Assembly (NCBI GenBank): GCA_015233655.1
Contig: JADFXI010000006.1
Coordinates: 1-56,989, forward strand
Source: Nitrospirota bacterium
GTDB lineage: Bacteria > Nitrospirota > Thermodesulfovibrionia > Thermodesulfovibrionales > Dissulfurispiraceae
Direction of reading: 5' to 3'
DNA: 56,989 nt
Shown in pieces: positions 43,774-53,023 of this stretch. The translations under genes were made by a program, and so were the position numbers. The number at the start of each line of letters is the position of its first letter. Positions within the stretch are counted from its first letter, which is position 1. The notes below the pieces were generated by a model. That model was not told the origin of the DNA. It did not search any database and saw only the letters and a program-made list of their open reading frames with translations.

Positions 43774-44187
43774 TTAGCAGAAGAGAAGATGGTCTACCGA
43801 TTCCATCGCCTTCTGGATTTCGCTGTAGGGAACAAGCTTTGCGTTCGTCTCTCCCCCGATATCTTCCGCATCCATTATCAGAGCATCTTCTTTAATGCCG
43901 AGCCTATCTACATCTTCTTTGCATATAAGCACATTGAGGTCCAGCAAAAGAGAGTTCTTAACATGTTGCTCCAGGCTGGTGATTCCGTAATGCTTCATTG
44001 CCAGCTGGCTCTTGAGGCAATTGAGAACGCCGTCGCCGATAAAGCAAACCACCGGCTCGACCAGATCCCCGTCCTCCAGATATATTTCGACGGTCTGGCT
44101 GGAGATCGCGTGTGTCATTGCAAGCCTGGAACCTTCAATCTTATAAGGGAGAGTTCTGATAACAAATCCCAGTTTCTTAGTCGCCAT
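43774..44187 (-). CDS. dsrF: DsrF-like protein (DsrE/F/H family)
   Basis: 137 aa, the expected length for DsrF/TusC. The DsrE-fold pattern is visible (CFIGDGVLNCL, then a helix to NSLLLDLNVLICKEDVDRLGI with a Cys). A C-terminal Cys ends the protein (HLLFC). It follows dsrE by 1 base. Assignment as F rather than another DsrE paralogue rests on order and length, so it is less sure than the family. Confidence 0.75.
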   Translation of the reverse strand: MATKKLGFVIRTLPYKIEGSRLAMTHAISSQTVEIYLEDGDLVEPVVCFIGDGVLNCLKSQLAMKHYGITSLEQHVKNSLLLDLNVLICKEDVDRLGIKEDALIMDAEDIGGETNAKLVPYSEIQKAMESVDHLLFC

Positions 44188-44188
44188 A

Positions 44189-44551
44189 TTAATCTCCTCC
44201 TATATGAAGGACCCTGTCGGCGCTGAAGGTGCTTGCCAGATACCAATCCATACTAAACCTTTTGACGCCTTCCATAGTGTCCTCTTTTTTATAACCTCTT
44301 GCTTCGGCACATGCTTCGCATGCGGTTACCTGCATATTACCGGTAGCAACCAGTTCCTGCACTTTCTTTGCAAGGGCAGAATAATCCTTGAATGCTTTCT
44401 GTCCGCTCTTGGAAAGCATTGTGCCGTTTCCTGATACCCAAAGATCTACTTTATGGCCTTTCTGCACGGCGGCTTCGGAAAGCTTTACGGCAAAATCGAG
44501 CGACATTGAGCCGACCAGCGAAGAAAAGCAGCCGATAGTTAATTTTCCCAT
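44189..44551 (-). CDS. dsrE: DsrE-like sulfurtransferase (TusD family)
   Basis: 120 aa DsrE-fold protein. The segment MQVTACEACAEARG matches the active-site region of DsrE/TusD, with its sulfur-accepting Cys. The N-terminus (KLTIGCFSSLVGSMSLDFAVKL) has the beta-alpha-beta start of the family. It has an AAAGGAG Shine-Dalgarno. With DsrF and DsrH it would form the heterohexameric sulfur-transfer complex that passes sulfur between TusA and DsrC. Confidence 0.82.
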   Translation of the reverse strand: MGKLTIGCFSSLVGSMSLDFAVKLSEAAVQKGHKVDLWVSGNGTMLSKSGQKAFKDYSALAKKVQELVATGNMQVTACEACAEARGYKKEDTMEGVKRFSMDWYLASTFSADRVLHIGGD

Positions 44552-44570
44552 GCTCGTCTCCTTTTGAGAA

Positions 44571-44867
44571 TTATATCCATATGGTTTTTTCGTAATCGTT
44601 AAAAATAAGGTCGACCAAATCGCCGTAGTTTACGACCTTCACACGGCTGTCTACATTTGCGGCACTGAATCCCCTGCTCTCAAGGTCCTCAACCAGAACA
44701 TAGAATGTTGCGGGTTTTTCGAGAACGGAAGACGATTTGCCGTTTTCCTTAACAGTTGCATTGTAAACGCCATTGCCGACAAGAATAATGCCGAGCTTCT
44801 CGGCGGTCAGCCTGTCAAGCACATCAGCTCCTGTCCTGTAATCACTTACAAAAACGCCCAGTTTCAC
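44571..44867 (-). CDS. dsrH: DsrH-like protein (TusB family)
   Basis: 98 aa, first gene of the operon. It has the DsrH/TusB length and ends in Trp-Ile (YEKTIWI), as that family usually ends near a Trp. No Cys is present, whereas Allochromatium DsrH has one. GTG start at 44867 with AGGAGGTG Shine-Dalgarno. The operon order H-E-F-tusA differs from the dsrE-F-H order of purple sulfur bacteria. Confidence 0.75.
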   Translation of the reverse strand: MKLGVFVSDYRTGADVLDRLTAEKLGIILVGNGVYNATVKENGKSSSVLEKPATFYVLVEDLESRGFSAANVDSRVKVVNYGDLVDLIFNDYEKTIWI

Positions 44868-45062: not shown

Positions 45063-46286
45063 TTAAAGCAGTGAATACAAAAGCTCATCAACCGCGTCTA
45101 TCAGTTCCTTGAACAACCCGCCGTGGCTTTTTGAATTGCCAAAAAGCCAGGTCCTCATTTTCTGTATTTCCGGGTTGTTGCACATTTCATAAGTTATAGG
45201 TCCGCTTAGCATCGCTTGTCTTTCCAGAATGAGCAGGCGCTTTGCCTGATCTGAGAACGGCAGGAGCAAGTTTTTTATGCGCGAAGAGTGACTGGTGATT
45301 AAAGATGAATTACAGCCGCTTCGTATAAGTGCGGCAATTTCCTTTATCATGGTAAACAAGGTGCAATATTCGAGACCTCTGACACCGCGCCGCCACTGCA
45401 AGAGCATTGGGTTTCTCCAAAACCAGAGAAAATTGCGCAGCCCAAGTGAAATCAGCTCATCCGCCGCCGATTCGAGTTCGTCCATTAGACTTTGTTCAAC
45501 ACGGTCCTTTACAAGGCCCACGGGTCCCTCTGTATCAGCGTGTACGTCAATGTTTCCCATGCCTTGAAGGTAGTTCCATATATTCTTCAGTACAAGAGTA
45601 CCATTGGAATCTTCCGGAGTATCGAAATGGACCAACGAGAGCAGCACCTTTCCGTCTCCAAACGCACCTTCGACAACAGCCGGATCATCGAGCAGACGTT
45701 CCGGGTTAAGGTTGATGCCGTAATTTTTTTCGCTGTCAGCCCAGTCGCCATAGCGCACAGTGTCACCTACATTAAGATCTGAACTGAAAGAATCCGGCAG
45801 GGCAGCGCCATAAGCGGCAAGCAGATGGTTAGTATCTCTGTCAGGCAGAAACTGGGACGGCCACCAGGCATGGAATACCGGGTCGGTGATGTCCTGCCAT
45901 ATGGGATGCTCAGACAAGTTCAGACGTATCCTGCCGCTAAAGCTCGGAACGCGATCTTTCGTCGGTTTTCTCCTGATGTTCAGAAGACCGATCCCGTCAG
46001 CAGTAGCAAGTCCGGCGCCGCCGCAAAAGCCGAGATAGTTGCCGCCTCTGCCGACAAATTCCTTTATCTGAAGAATACCATCGGCGCCGAGTGTCTTGAT
46101 CTTGTTTGAGGCCCACCCGCCAGGGACAAACAGTAGTTTGTAACCGAAAAGGGCACCCTTTTTAATATCTTCAGAGCGAACCAACTCAAATGGAAGGTGC
46201 GCGGCTTTAAGTGCTTTGTAAGCCATCAACCCCCATAAAAATGATTCATCCCAGAGGAGAGCAGTCTTGCCGTCGGTACGTGTCAA
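45063..46286 (-). CDS. BPL_N / GATase1-like domain protein
   Basis: 407 aa. The N-terminal 240 residues resemble the biotin-protein-ligase N-terminal (class I glutamine amidotransferase-like) fold, with LLFVPGGWASN, the nucleophile-elbow YLGFCGGAGLA (Cys) and an ALLWDESFLWG start. The C-terminal half is helical with no known motif. The TTG start (46286) has no Shine-Dalgarno. The open frame continues back to the TAG stop of the chemoreceptor gene, which is in the same frame 45 bases upstream. The function is unknown; BPL_N-like proteins have no biotin ligase part here. Confidence 0.65.
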   Translation of the reverse strand: MTRTDGKTALLWDESFLWGLMAYKALKAAHLPFELVRSEDIKKGALFGYKLLFVPGGWASNKIKTLGADGILQIKEFVGRGGNYLGFCGGAGLATADGIGLLNIRRKPTKDRVPSFSGRIRLNLSEHPIWQDITDPVFHAWWPSQFLPDRDTNHLLAAYGAALPDSFSSDLNVGDTVRYGDWADSEKNYGINLNPERLLDDPAVVEGAFGDGKVLLSLVHFDTPEDSNGTLVLKNIWNYLQGMGNIDVHADTEGPVGLVKDRVEQSLMDELESAADELISLGLRNFLWFWRNPMLLQWRRGVRGLEYCTLFTMIKEIAALIRSGCNSSLITSHSSRIKNLLLPFSDQAKRLLILERQAMLSGPITYEMCNNPEIQKMRTWLFGNSKSHGGLFKELIDAVDELLYSLL

Positions 46287-46331: not shown

Positions 46332-48227
46332 CTATTTGCATTCCCTTTTTACTCCGTCAAGAAGGCTTACAATCTGTTCTGACAGGTCTTCCATTTCATT
46401 ATACAGACCTGTCGCTTTTTCCTTGTTGCCTGAATTGAATGCAGCGATAGCCTCTTTTGCGAGTGCATGTATCCTGTCATGCGGAGTGAGTATGGCCTTG
46501 AAGGACGGCAAATTGCCGCACTTTTCCCGGCCTTCAGTGTCGTACCACTTGCCGAACCTGCATGTATGATGGTCAGGCAGCTTGGCAGGGTCAAGCGTTG
46601 TATCACCCTTAAGACAGGACCCGACCTTCCCCACAAACACTCTGTGGTCTGTCTTTGCTATGTCGAGTATCATTAACTCGCTGCCTTTTGTCTTAAAGCC
46701 TGAGGTAGTGTTCCTCAGCTCTTCCGCTATTTTAATCAATCCATTCACTTCATGCATTACTTCGTCAGACATTTTTTCCATGTCCCTGGCTATGTTAGAG
46801 GTCTTCTCAATATTGCTTGCGACTTCTTCCGACACTGCAGACTGCTCATCAACCGCTGTTGCAATCTGGGTTATCTGGTCACGCACTTTCTGGACCGCGT
46901 CCACTATATGGTTCAGCGAATCTCCGACCTGCCTTATATAATCCGTGGCCTTAGTCACCTCTCCTGAAGCATCTTCCATAGACTTTGATGTCTGCTCTGA
47001 TTCGGTCTGCACAGCATTGATCTTCTCCGTGATCTCTCCCGTGGCCTTTATGGTCCTCTCTGCCAGTTTTCTCACTTCGTCCGCTACTACGGCAAAACCC
47101 CTGCCCTGCTCTCCGGCCCTTGCCGCCTCGATAGCTGCATTAAGCGCCAGCAGGTTTGTCTGGTCCGCAATGTCTTTAATAACTGTAACAATGCCGCCGA
47201 TTTCCGACGCCCTTTTGTTCAGCTTCTCAACCATGGTCGAAAGCTCTATAGTCGACGTGTAGACCTTGGCAACAGTATCAACCGCTCCGTCAGCCACAAC
47301 TTTGCCGTCATTGGCTGTTTTCATCGCATCTTCGGACGATTGCGAGGCCTCGGCGGCATTTCTAGAAATGTCGGTAATGGTCTGGCTCATCTCTTCTGCA
47401 GCTGTTGCTATCTGGTTAGCCTGCCCTGACTGGTTCCGCGCTCCTTCCGTTGTTTTTTCGGACCTCACTCTTAATACATCAACAGTATGGACCACATTTC
47501 CGGCAGAGCCCATAATGCCGCTGATCATCTCGCTGATTATACCGATCATTTTGTTCATATCTCGCGAAAGTGCGCCGATTTCATCCTTGCTGTCATAGTC
47601 TATCACCACTCTGAGGTCGCCATTGGCAATGATGTTGACTTTGTCTTTGAAAACAGACAACGGACGAATTACTTTTTTCTGGCTTACAAATAAAATGGCA
47701 ACGAGAATAAGAAAATTGAGCACAAAGAGGACAATCTGTATGGTCTTGAGCGCCCTGACTTTTCCTTCCGATAACTCAGCAGCTAGCGTTGTGGACTCAT
47801 CGGCCAATTTCAATAATTTCTCGCTTTCAATATAAAGAGCATTAAGCGCTTCAGGACTCGTTTCGGCTTTGCTCATTGCGTCTTTGTATTTCTGCCATTC
47901 GGTATTGATTTCATTCATTTTGGCAATAAGCTTCTCGTCCCCGGCTTTCGGCAATCTCAATTCTGCGTCGCCGTTGAGCAGTCCGGCAACGATCTTGTCC
48001 ATTTTCCCGGTCAGCTGCACGATGTTGTCCCCGACATCCGAACCATGCTGTTTTGCATACACCATTTTTGTCAGTCTCTGAGATATGGCCCGCTGTCTTC
48101 CCGAATTATTAACTATGTTGCCGTCATCTGACATCTTGCCGAGCCAGAAAAACACAGAAAGCCCGCTCAAAAGAGCAAATACCAGAAGAATCAACACAGC
48201 AAGCTTTACCTCAGTAGAAATTTTCAT
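46332..48227 (-). CDS. Methyl-accepting chemotaxis protein with PilJ-type sensor and CZB domain
   Basis: 631 aa. A membrane helix (about 8-30) is followed by a periplasmic PilJ-type sensor domain with [15 protein letters not shown], a second helix (about 160-185), HAMP, and a long cytoplasmic signalling domain whose hairpin tip reads [28 protein letters not shown]-terminal CZB (chemoreceptor zinc-binding) domain has the CRFGKWY motif plus the conserved His residues (DHRVF, PHDRIH). Such PilJ-type sensors are often found in nitrate or nitrite receptors. A GTGGAGG Shine-Dalgarno precedes the ATG. The gene is controlled by a c-di-GMP riboswitch in its leader. Confidence 0.92.
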
Positions 48228-48287
48228 TCGGCCTCCACTTAGAAACTATTATTTTCGTTATCATCATATTCTGAAAAAAATTTCAAT

Positions 48288-48324
48288 AAAAAACCGGGCT
48301 ACCTTAGTTTAGCAGGCAACCCGG
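48288..48324 (-). terminator. Riboswitch-controlled terminator before the chemoreceptor gene
   Basis: On the minus strand CCGGGTTGCC (48324-48315) pairs with GGTAGCCCGG (48303-48294), ten pairs including two G-U, followed by a T-run (48293-48288). The first arm is part of the riboswitch 3' half, so folding of the aptamer and of the terminator exclude each other. Confidence 0.72.
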
Positions 48325-48398
48325 CTGTCTAATAAGATATAGACCCGCAGCTTTCCGTCATCTCCTCGCGGAGACTTTGGCTTTATCCAGTTTTAAAC
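48307..48398 (-). promoter_or_regulatory. Cyclic di-GMP-I (GEMM-I) riboswitch
   Basis: The minus strand folds like class-I c-di-GMP aptamers. It has a P1 stem (GTTTA at 48398-48394 with TAAAC at 48311-48307), GCCAAAG, a first hairpin TCTCC-GCGA-GGAGA with a GNRA tetraloop, the linker TGACGGAAAGC (consensus GACGCAAAGC), a second stem starting CTGCGGGTCTA, and the 3' receptor strand GACAGCCGGGTTGCC (consensus GCCGGGUUACC). The 3' strand doubles as the first arm of a terminator. Ligand binding would keep that arm in the aptamer, so c-di-GMP probably turns the gene on. Confidence 0.82.
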
Positions 48399-48495: not shown

Positions 48496-48717
48496 ATGCC
48501 AAAAGTAGTTGCTATGGAGAAAATAGAAAAGGAGATAGGGAAACTTACGCCCCAGCAGCAGTTAAAGCTGGTGGAAAAGCTTGCTCACGATCTTAGGAAG
48601 ACCGGGCTTGCAGTGAAGAAAGAACTCGACTGGAAAGGGCTTTACGGCCTCGGAAAGGGGCTGTGGAAAGAAGACGCACAGACCTATATAAATAAACTCC
48701 GTGAAGACAGGACATGA
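48496..48717 (+). CDS. Antitoxin-like protein, partner of the PIN toxin
   Basis: 73 aa, basic and helical, starting MPKVVAMEKIEKEIGKLTPQQQLKLVEKLAHDLRK. It has the size, position and translational overlap (ATGA) of a type II antitoxin before a VapC-type toxin. No AbrB, MetJ or HTH motif is clear, so the family is not named. A GGGGGTGAG Shine-Dalgarno-like sequence precedes the ATG. Its promoter region is divergent from the riboswitch-controlled gene. Confidence 0.7.
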   Translation: MPKVVAMEKIEKEIGKLTPQQQLKLVEKLAHDLRKTGLAVKKELDWKGLYGLGKGLWKEDAQTYINKLREDRT

Positions 48718-49160
48718 CCATATCTGCTGCACTTTCTGACCTCACTTCGATTTTCATTGATACCGCACCCGTCATTTATTACATAGAGGCCCATCCCGAA
48801 TTCGGCCCTGTTACCAAAGAAGTTGTCACCGCCTTTCAGTCTGGAAGGCTGACTGCTTTTTCTTCTGTCATTACTCTTACAGAGGTTCTTCCTAAACCCA
48901 TCGAAAATGGTGATGAAAAGCTCGCTAAGAAATTCTCGGAATTTCTCAAACATGGGAAAAATCTTGTTGTGCTTGAAATCTCTGAAAAGATAGCGGAGAA
49001 GGCTGGCAAATTGAGAGGGCATTATACGTATCTCAGAACTATCGATGCCATTCAGATCGCATCAGCCATTGAAGCTGGAGCAGATGCCTTTCTGACGAAT
49101 GACAAAAAACTTAAACAAGTTAAAGAAATAAAAACTTTGGTTTTGGCAGATTATTTGTAA
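48714..49160 (+). CDS. PIN-domain toxin (VapC-like)
   Basis: 148 aa ribonuclease-fold protein. PIN active-site acids are visible: Asp in FIDTAPVIYY, Glu in TLTEVL, Asp in RTIDAIQIASA, and the FLTNDKKL motif. VapC toxins cut tRNA or rRNA. It overlaps the antitoxin-like gene by 4 bases, supporting a toxin-antitoxin pair. The next gene is on the other strand. Confidence 0.85.
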   Translation: MTISAALSDLTSIFIDTAPVIYYIEAHPEFGPVTKEVVTAFQSGRLTAFSSVITLTEVLPKPIENGDEKLAKKFSEFLKHGKNLVVLEISEKIAEKAGKLRGHYTYLRTIDAIQIASAIEAGADAFLTNDKKLKQVKEIKTLVLADYL

Positions 49161-51667: not shown

Positions 51668-53023
51668 ATGATCGATACACATTGTCATCTTGATATGGAC
51701 CCTTTTGAGGCTGACAGGGATGATGTTATCAAGAGGGCCCGGGAAGCCGGAATCGAAGCATTTCTCTGTATCGGTTCTGATTTTGAAGGCAACAAGGGCG
51801 CTGTAGCGCTGGCGGAAAAGCACGACGACATCTATGCTGTGGTGGGCATGCATCCCCACGATGCCAAAGACTTTACGAAAGCGGTTTTTGATCAGATAAA
51901 AATATGGGCTGCTCATAAAAAAGTGGTTGCTGTCGGAGAGATTGGGCTGGACTATCATTACGACCATTCCCCTAGAGAAGTCCAGCGCGATGTCTTCAGG
52001 CAGCAGCTTGATTACGCGAAGGAGTCAGGTCTTCCTGTGGTTGTTCACAGTAGAGACGCAAGTGAGGACACGCTTTCTATTCTTAAGGATTCAGGTGTCG
52101 GGCAAGGGGTCATGCATTGTTTCTCAGGAGACAGTGACATGGCTGACCGGGTGCTCGCGATGGGCTTTCATATTTCGTTTGCCGGGCAGGTGACTTTCAA
52201 GAAGGCGACTCAGCTCCGCGAGATAGCCAAGACTATCCCTGATGAACGCCTGCTTGTTGAGACGGATGCCCCTTTTCTTGCGCCGGAGCCTCTCAGAGGC
52301 AAACGTAACGAGCCGGCATTTATATTACATACCGCCCGTTTTCTCGCTCAATTAAGGGGTGTCTCGCTTGAGGACATTGACAGGATGACGACGCTCAATG
52401 CCAGGAGGCTTTTCGGGGTCGGCGAACTGCCTGCAGGCCAGATAGCATACAGGATCAGAGACAGCCTCTATTTGAACATCACCAACAGATGCACCAGCAA
52501 ATGCATTTTTTGCATCCGATCCTCTACAGACTTTGTGAAAGGGCACAATCTGCGCCTGGCCCATGAGCCTTCTGTTGAGGATTTGGCAGGTGCTATCGGC
52601 GATCCGACCCGGTACAGGGAAATCGTATTTTGCGGTTATGGCGAACCTCTTCTCAGGCTCGATGCCGTCAAGGCAGTTGCTGCTCTGGTAAAACAGCAAG
52701 GGGGCAGGGTGAGGATAAATACAAACGGCCACGGCAATCTTATTTACAAGAGAAACATCCTGCCTGAGCTGCGTGGACTTGTCGACAGCATATCCATAAG
52801 TCTCGATGCCCAGGACGAGGATACCTATCGGCGCCTCTGTAAGCCCTCTTTCGATAATGCATTTCAGGAAGTAATTAACTTTATCAGGGAGGCAAAGCTC
52901 TGCATCCCCGAGGTCAGCGCAACAGTAGTCGCTGCCGATGGAGTGGACATTGATAAGTGCAGGGCGATTACAGATGAGTTGGGGGTAACCCTAAGGGTGA
53001 GGGGACTGGATAACGTCGGTTAG
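51668..53023 (+). CDS. TatD-type hydrolase fused to a radical SAM domain
   Basis: 451 aa. The first 260 residues are a TatD-family metal-dependent DNase fold (IDTHCHLD at 2-9, GEIGLDYHY, VVHSRDA, LVETDAPFL). The remainder is a radical SAM domain with NRCTSKCIFCIRSS (CxxxCxxC) and the GYGEPLLR motif. This matches the tatD-linked radical SAM family (known as TatD-associated rSAM); here the two parts are one polypeptide. The target of the radical SAM part is unknown. Its 3' end overlaps hisS, convergent, by 33 bases. Confidence 0.88.
   Translation: MIDTHCHLDMDPFEADRDDVIKRAREAGIEAFLCIGSDFEGNKGAVALAEKHDDIYAVVGMHPHDAKDFTKAVFDQIKIWAAHKKVVAVGEIGLDYHYDHSPREVQRDVFRQQLDYAKESGLPVVVHSRDASEDTLSILKDSGVGQGVMHCFSGDSDMADRVLAMGFHISFAGQVTFKKATQLREIAKTIPDERLLVETDAPFLAPEPLRGKRNEPAFILHTARFLAQLRGVSLEDIDRMTTLNARRLFGVGELPAGQIAYRIRDSLYLNITNRCTSKCIFCIRSSTDFVKGHNLRLAHEPSVEDLAGAIGDPTRYREIVFCGYGEPLLRLDAVKAVAALVKQQGGRVRINTNGHGNLIYKRNILPELRGLVDSISISLDAQDEDTYRRLCKPSFDNAFQEVINFIREAKLCIPEVSATVVAADGVDIDKCRAITDELGVTLRVRGLDNVG

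Follow-up and report, generated by a model that had tools for sequence, protein, structure and literature searches.

The minus strand of a 56,989-nucleotide stretch of DNA from an uncultured Nitrospirota bacterium (contig JADFXI010000006.1; the whole stretch is referred to here as the window) carries at positions 48391 to 48312 a genuine c-di-GMP-I (GEMM-I) riboswitch of a known kind, predicted to act as an ON switch. On the basis of its sequence, of fold modelling and of its likeness to studied systems, we consider it probable that this element is a class-I c-di-GMP riboswitch that turns on transcription of a chemoreceptor gene. Taken by itself, the element is ordinary; one of its base pairs, C21-G46, is reversed relative to the type example, and this reversed pair marks a large GEMM-I sub-lineage.

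Aptamer structure and ligand pocket

When the whole window was searched against all 4227 Rfam families using cmscan, the element matched RF01051 (c-di-GMP-I/GEMM-I) along the full model (positions 1 to 87 of 87), with a score of 59.8 bits and an E value of 3.1e-9; the gathering score of the family is 35 bits. A sequence-only reading had proposed a class-I c-di-GMP aptamer at this site, with an Infernal search against RF01051 as one way to check it, and the match confirms the proposal. All of the motifs on which that reading relied were found, namely, the GNRA loop (GCGA), GACGGAAAGC, GACAGCCGGGTTGCC and a short P1, which is weak. The RNA fold was also more stable than each of 200 dinucleotide shuffles (200/200; z = -3.76).

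Mapping through the cmscan alignment, with Vc2 numbering (PMC3764141, PMC7288161), placed the P2 hairpin with its GCGA loop at 48355 to 48380 (minus strand), and covariation in 76 aptamers agreed. The end of P2 that adjoins the ligand site consists of the reversed pair C21-G46 (48380-48355) and then C22-G45 (48379-48356). The equivalent of C92, whose partner in the bound RNA is the ligand guanine (PMC3764141, PMC9262584), lies at 48316, and the pocket residues listed in PMC3764141 (G20, A47, A48 and C92, together with the pair C22-G45) are all kept. The element thus shares with Vc2, the type example of GEMM-I, the consensus fold, the GNRA loop on P2, G20, A47 and C92; it differs from Vc2 in having C-G in place of G-C at positions 21 and 46, a weak P1 and a terminator that shares the 3' strand. 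P1 reads GG/CCU against a subtype consensus of CG/CCG and is weaker than the P1 of relatives: it comprises G14-C93 and two possible wobbles, with a possible A+U-rich extension, and ligand affinity could be low as a result.

Terminator overlap and predicted switching

The minimum-energy fold predicts an intrinsic terminator at 48326 to 48288 (minus strand), with a stem of 13 pairs (48326-48314 with 48304-48292) and an overlapping run of six T residues (48293-48288). The sequence-only reading was right about the terminator and its T-run; the 10 pairs that it gave to the stem are the G+C-rich core of the longer helix. A generic terminator scan missed the stem because its loop limit was 8 nt. As that reading had also said, terminator and aptamer share a strand: the 5' arm of the terminator is the 3' strand of P3/J3-1, made up of the P3 strand plus positions 91 to 93 and so including the C92 equivalent at 48316, so that the terminator and the ligand-binding fold are mutually exclusive.

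Fold energies from a secondary-structure model, which takes in neither ligand nor tertiary contacts, put the aptamer fold ~4 kcal/mol above the best fold until the polymerase reaches ~48298 and ~10 to 12 kcal/mol above it once the terminator is complete. Binding must therefore precede completion of the terminator arm. In the mechanism that we propose, the polymerase would make the aptamer before the terminator, and c-di-GMP bound ahead of the emergence of the terminator 3' arm would keep C92 and the P3 3' strand within the aptamer; the chemoreceptor gene would then be transcribed, since no terminator could form. In the unliganded RNA, the 3' strand of P3 would instead pair with the downstream arm, and transcription would stop at the U-run, ~60 nt ahead of the start codon. 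The ON direction that had been predicted from the overlap is supported by this exclusion, as in the studied ON switch of Geobacter pilM (PMC9262584). It is very improbable that ligand favors termination here: some GEMM-I riboswitches are OFF switches, Cd1 being an example (PMC9262584), but aptamer and terminator exist together in Cd1, whereas those of the window use one strand, C92 included.

Target gene and paralogous switch

GEMM-I riboswitches are well known from positions ahead of motility and surface genes. The next gene on the minus strand (46332 to 48227) encodes a protein of 631 amino acids in which a Pfam scan found a PilJ-type N-terminal domain, HAMP, MCPsignal and a C-terminal CZB zinc-binding domain, which bears out its earlier description as a CZB chemoreceptor; a ribosome-binding site, GGAGG (48232 to 48236), stands 4 nt ahead of its start codon. 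Among named homologs of the receptor, the best come from records labelled "Nitrospirae bacterium" and "Thermodesulfovibrionales bacterium." CZB domains, which occur in chemoreceptors and diguanylate cyclases, respond to oxidants via a zinc-binding cysteine (PMC8262984).

Several neighboring genes were also noted. On the same strand, 45 nt past the receptor stop codon, lies a gene for a BPL_N-domain protein (45063 to 46286), which is possibly cotranscribed with the receptor gene and thus also under riboswitch control; DsrE/DsrE/DsrH-like sulfur-relay genes (43774 to 44867) lie farther downstream on that strand. The plus strand carries a divergent two-gene cassette (48496 to 49160), in which a small open reading frame overlaps a gene for a PIN-domain protein (48714 to 49160) and which resembles a toxin-antitoxin pair of the VapBC type, and a single open reading frame (51668 to 53023) that fuses a TatD-type DNase to a radical SAM domain.

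The window's genome (G000) contains five RF01051 aptamers. One of them, at positions 1247 to 1324 of contig C112 (L073), is a paralogous switch that has C21-G46, G20 and the overlapping terminator, and it stands ahead of cheW and of a PilJ-HAMP-MCPsignal-CZB receptor that is 60% identical to the window's receptor over residues 1 to 295. The terminator arms of the two copies differ yet stay complementary (CCGAGCTGCC/GGCAGTTCGG versus CCGGGTTGCC/GGTAGCCCGG). Whereas both copies precede receptors of the same architecture, the C112 copy differs from that of the window in having cheW as its first gene and a standard P1. A third close receptor paralog in this genome, on contig C185, has no RF01051 aptamer; 40 loci with receptor homologs were examined in other genomes, and none had an RF01051 match (0/40). 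The link between riboswitch and receptor is therefore local to this lineage and is present twice here; conservation of the pair in relatives is not supported, and long-term conservation of the pairing cannot serve as evidence.

The paralog also bears on whether the switch has decayed, such that the terminator forms at any ligand level or an internal promoter past the terminator drives the gene. The weakness of P1 and the great stability of the terminator are consistent with decay, as are two weak sigma-70-like matches between the terminator and the gene (48277 to 48248, minus strand); in a promoter scan upstream of the aptamer on that strand, no candidate passed. We nevertheless regard decay as improbable, since neither end of the reversed pair nor any tested pocket residue has been lost and the C112 copy retains the complete arrangement. 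A working ON switch remains the favored reading.

The reversed pair and its sub-lineage

The sequence GGAAAGC had been called a small deviation in the sequence-only reading. The base change is real (C to G at position 46), but it is not isolated: the partner at position 21 has changed from G to C, and C48380 pairs with G48355. We therefore rejected the idea of a damaging deviation; the pair is reversed yet intact. Among 76 RF01051 aptamers from the window's genome and from 25 relatives within its order, position 21 is C in 26 and G in 50, and position 46 matches it (C21-G46 or G21-C46) in every alignable aptamer, with no clear mismatch and one aptamer left ambiguous by a deletion. When 176 genomes of the order (85 genera) were searched for the pattern C21-G46 with G20, matches turned up in 30 genomes from 24 genera (a few matches lacking a P2 helix are probably due to chance), compared with 4 matches for a reversed control pattern. 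Elsewhere in the order, C21-G46 aptamers precede genes for CBS proteins, a cytochrome, a sigma factor, an Fe-alcohol dehydrogenase and secreted proteins.

The orientation of this pair goes with the layout of the terminator. In a fold-based test, a terminator sharing the aptamer strand was found for 20 of the 26 C21-G46 aptamers and for 1 of the 50 G21-C46 aptamers (Fisher P = 4e-12, a value that is indicative only, since the test was devised after a stricter one had failed and the sequences are related); shuffled downstream sequence gave 2.9%. The stricter test, which called for an ungapped overlap of 10 nt, did not separate the subtypes (11/26 versus 14/50; P = 0.3) because many of the stems carry mismatches or bulges. 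In the host's order, one reversed pair thus tells which aptamers bear the ON-type, shared-strand terminator.

Other arrangements were seen among the G21-C46 aptamers. Those of the GGU/AC type (e.g., L015, L035, L036, L037 and L039) are in most cases followed by a separate hairpin (GCCTGTTTCC...GGAAACAGGC plus a T-run), and a short GAAACAG directly 3' of the aptamer could pair with the 5' arm of that hairpin; these aptamers possibly follow the opposite switching logic. One locus of the window's genome (L003, 1501 to 1764; G000:C95:3807-4070) holds a tandem pair of complete GEMM-I aptamers separated by 106 nt; each has U22-A45 (GGU/AC type), and the sequence downstream of each can form a hairpin of its own. 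Five further aptamers (L017, L018, L029, L030 and L040) combine A20 with the standard G21-C46 and stand ahead of unlike genes; their ligand preference is uncertain.

Ligand preference

Nucleotide 20 separates preference for c-di-GMP from preference for 3',3'-cGAMP (PMC6456294, PMC9262584). It is G in the window's aptamer (48381; alignment position 11), and not the A20 of GEMM-Ib (cGAMP) riboswitches. With G20 and C92 both kept, c-di-GMP is the predicted ligand; G20 makes it the likelier one and does not prove it. The genome's own cyclases favor the same ligand, again short of proof: G000 has 21 GGDEF matches, and all of the ~15 readable domains have Asp at the position where a cGAMP synthase has Ser (~6 of the 21 matches were unreadable, and the assembly is 84% complete).

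The C21-G46 lineage contains GEMM-Ib riboswitches, which raises the possibility that this aptamer senses cGAMP or both dinucleotides. About five sites in the host's order combine A20 with C21. One of these, in the congeneric genome G001 (G001:C22:128548-128625; L066/L214), has A20 with C21-G46 ahead of a gene for another chemoreceptor (4HB-HAMP-MCP) and is predicted from its sequence to be a cGAMP riboswitch.

The C21-G46 pair was found in 104 of 117 sampled genomes of the order to which the deltaproteobacterial genome G176 belongs, which we take to be Geobacterales from its Gmet_0970-like aptamers. Among the sites listed there, most have A20 (the Gmet_0970 type) and a minority have G20; G20 and A20 members alike mostly show the same overlapping-terminator layout. 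The core of GGAAAG and GCGA loop also occurs in relatives of G176 and presumably in Gmet_0970 itself. The pilM (Gmet_0970) GEMM-Ib riboswitch of Geobacter metallireducens has, like the window's, a C at the equivalent of position 21 (C15 of 4YAZ; PMC7288161), and its terminator sequesters the ligand-pairing C in an ON logic that was studied experimentally there (PMC9262584). Riboswitches of the Gmet_0970 type differ from the window's in having A rather than G at position 20, U rather than C at position 22 and other target genes. The window's aptamer is thus a scaffold common to GEMM-Ib with, at position 20, the residue of the c-di-GMP type.

Besides the dominance of A20 members in the order of G176 and the A20 chemoreceptor switch of G001, it speaks for a response to cGAMP that G20 is a selectivity factor and not a hard filter (PMC9262584) and that one Geobacter riboswitch responds to both dinucleotides (PMC6456294). 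However, an A20G change switches a GEMM-Ib aptamer to c-di-GMP (PMC6456294), and no cGAMP-type (Ser) GGDEF domain was found among the readable domains of G000 or G001. We judge cGAMP sensing unlikely and prefer c-di-GMP.

Implications

A tentative proposal, about which our doubts outweigh our confidence, is that C21-G46 with an overlapping terminator may be an old ON-type GEMM-I sub-lineage present in Nitrospirota and Desulfobacterota, that its G20 members, the window's included, may be c-di-GMP sensors, and that the cGAMP riboswitches of Geobacter may have arisen inside it by a change from G20 to A20. If so, the Nitrospirota RNAs would preserve the state that preceded the ligand change. The presence of G20 and A20 versions ahead of chemoreceptor genes in one genus may offer natural material for the study of how riboswitches change ligand. 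For the bacterium itself, the prediction is that at high levels of c-di-GMP it would make particular chemoreceptors of the zinc/redox type.
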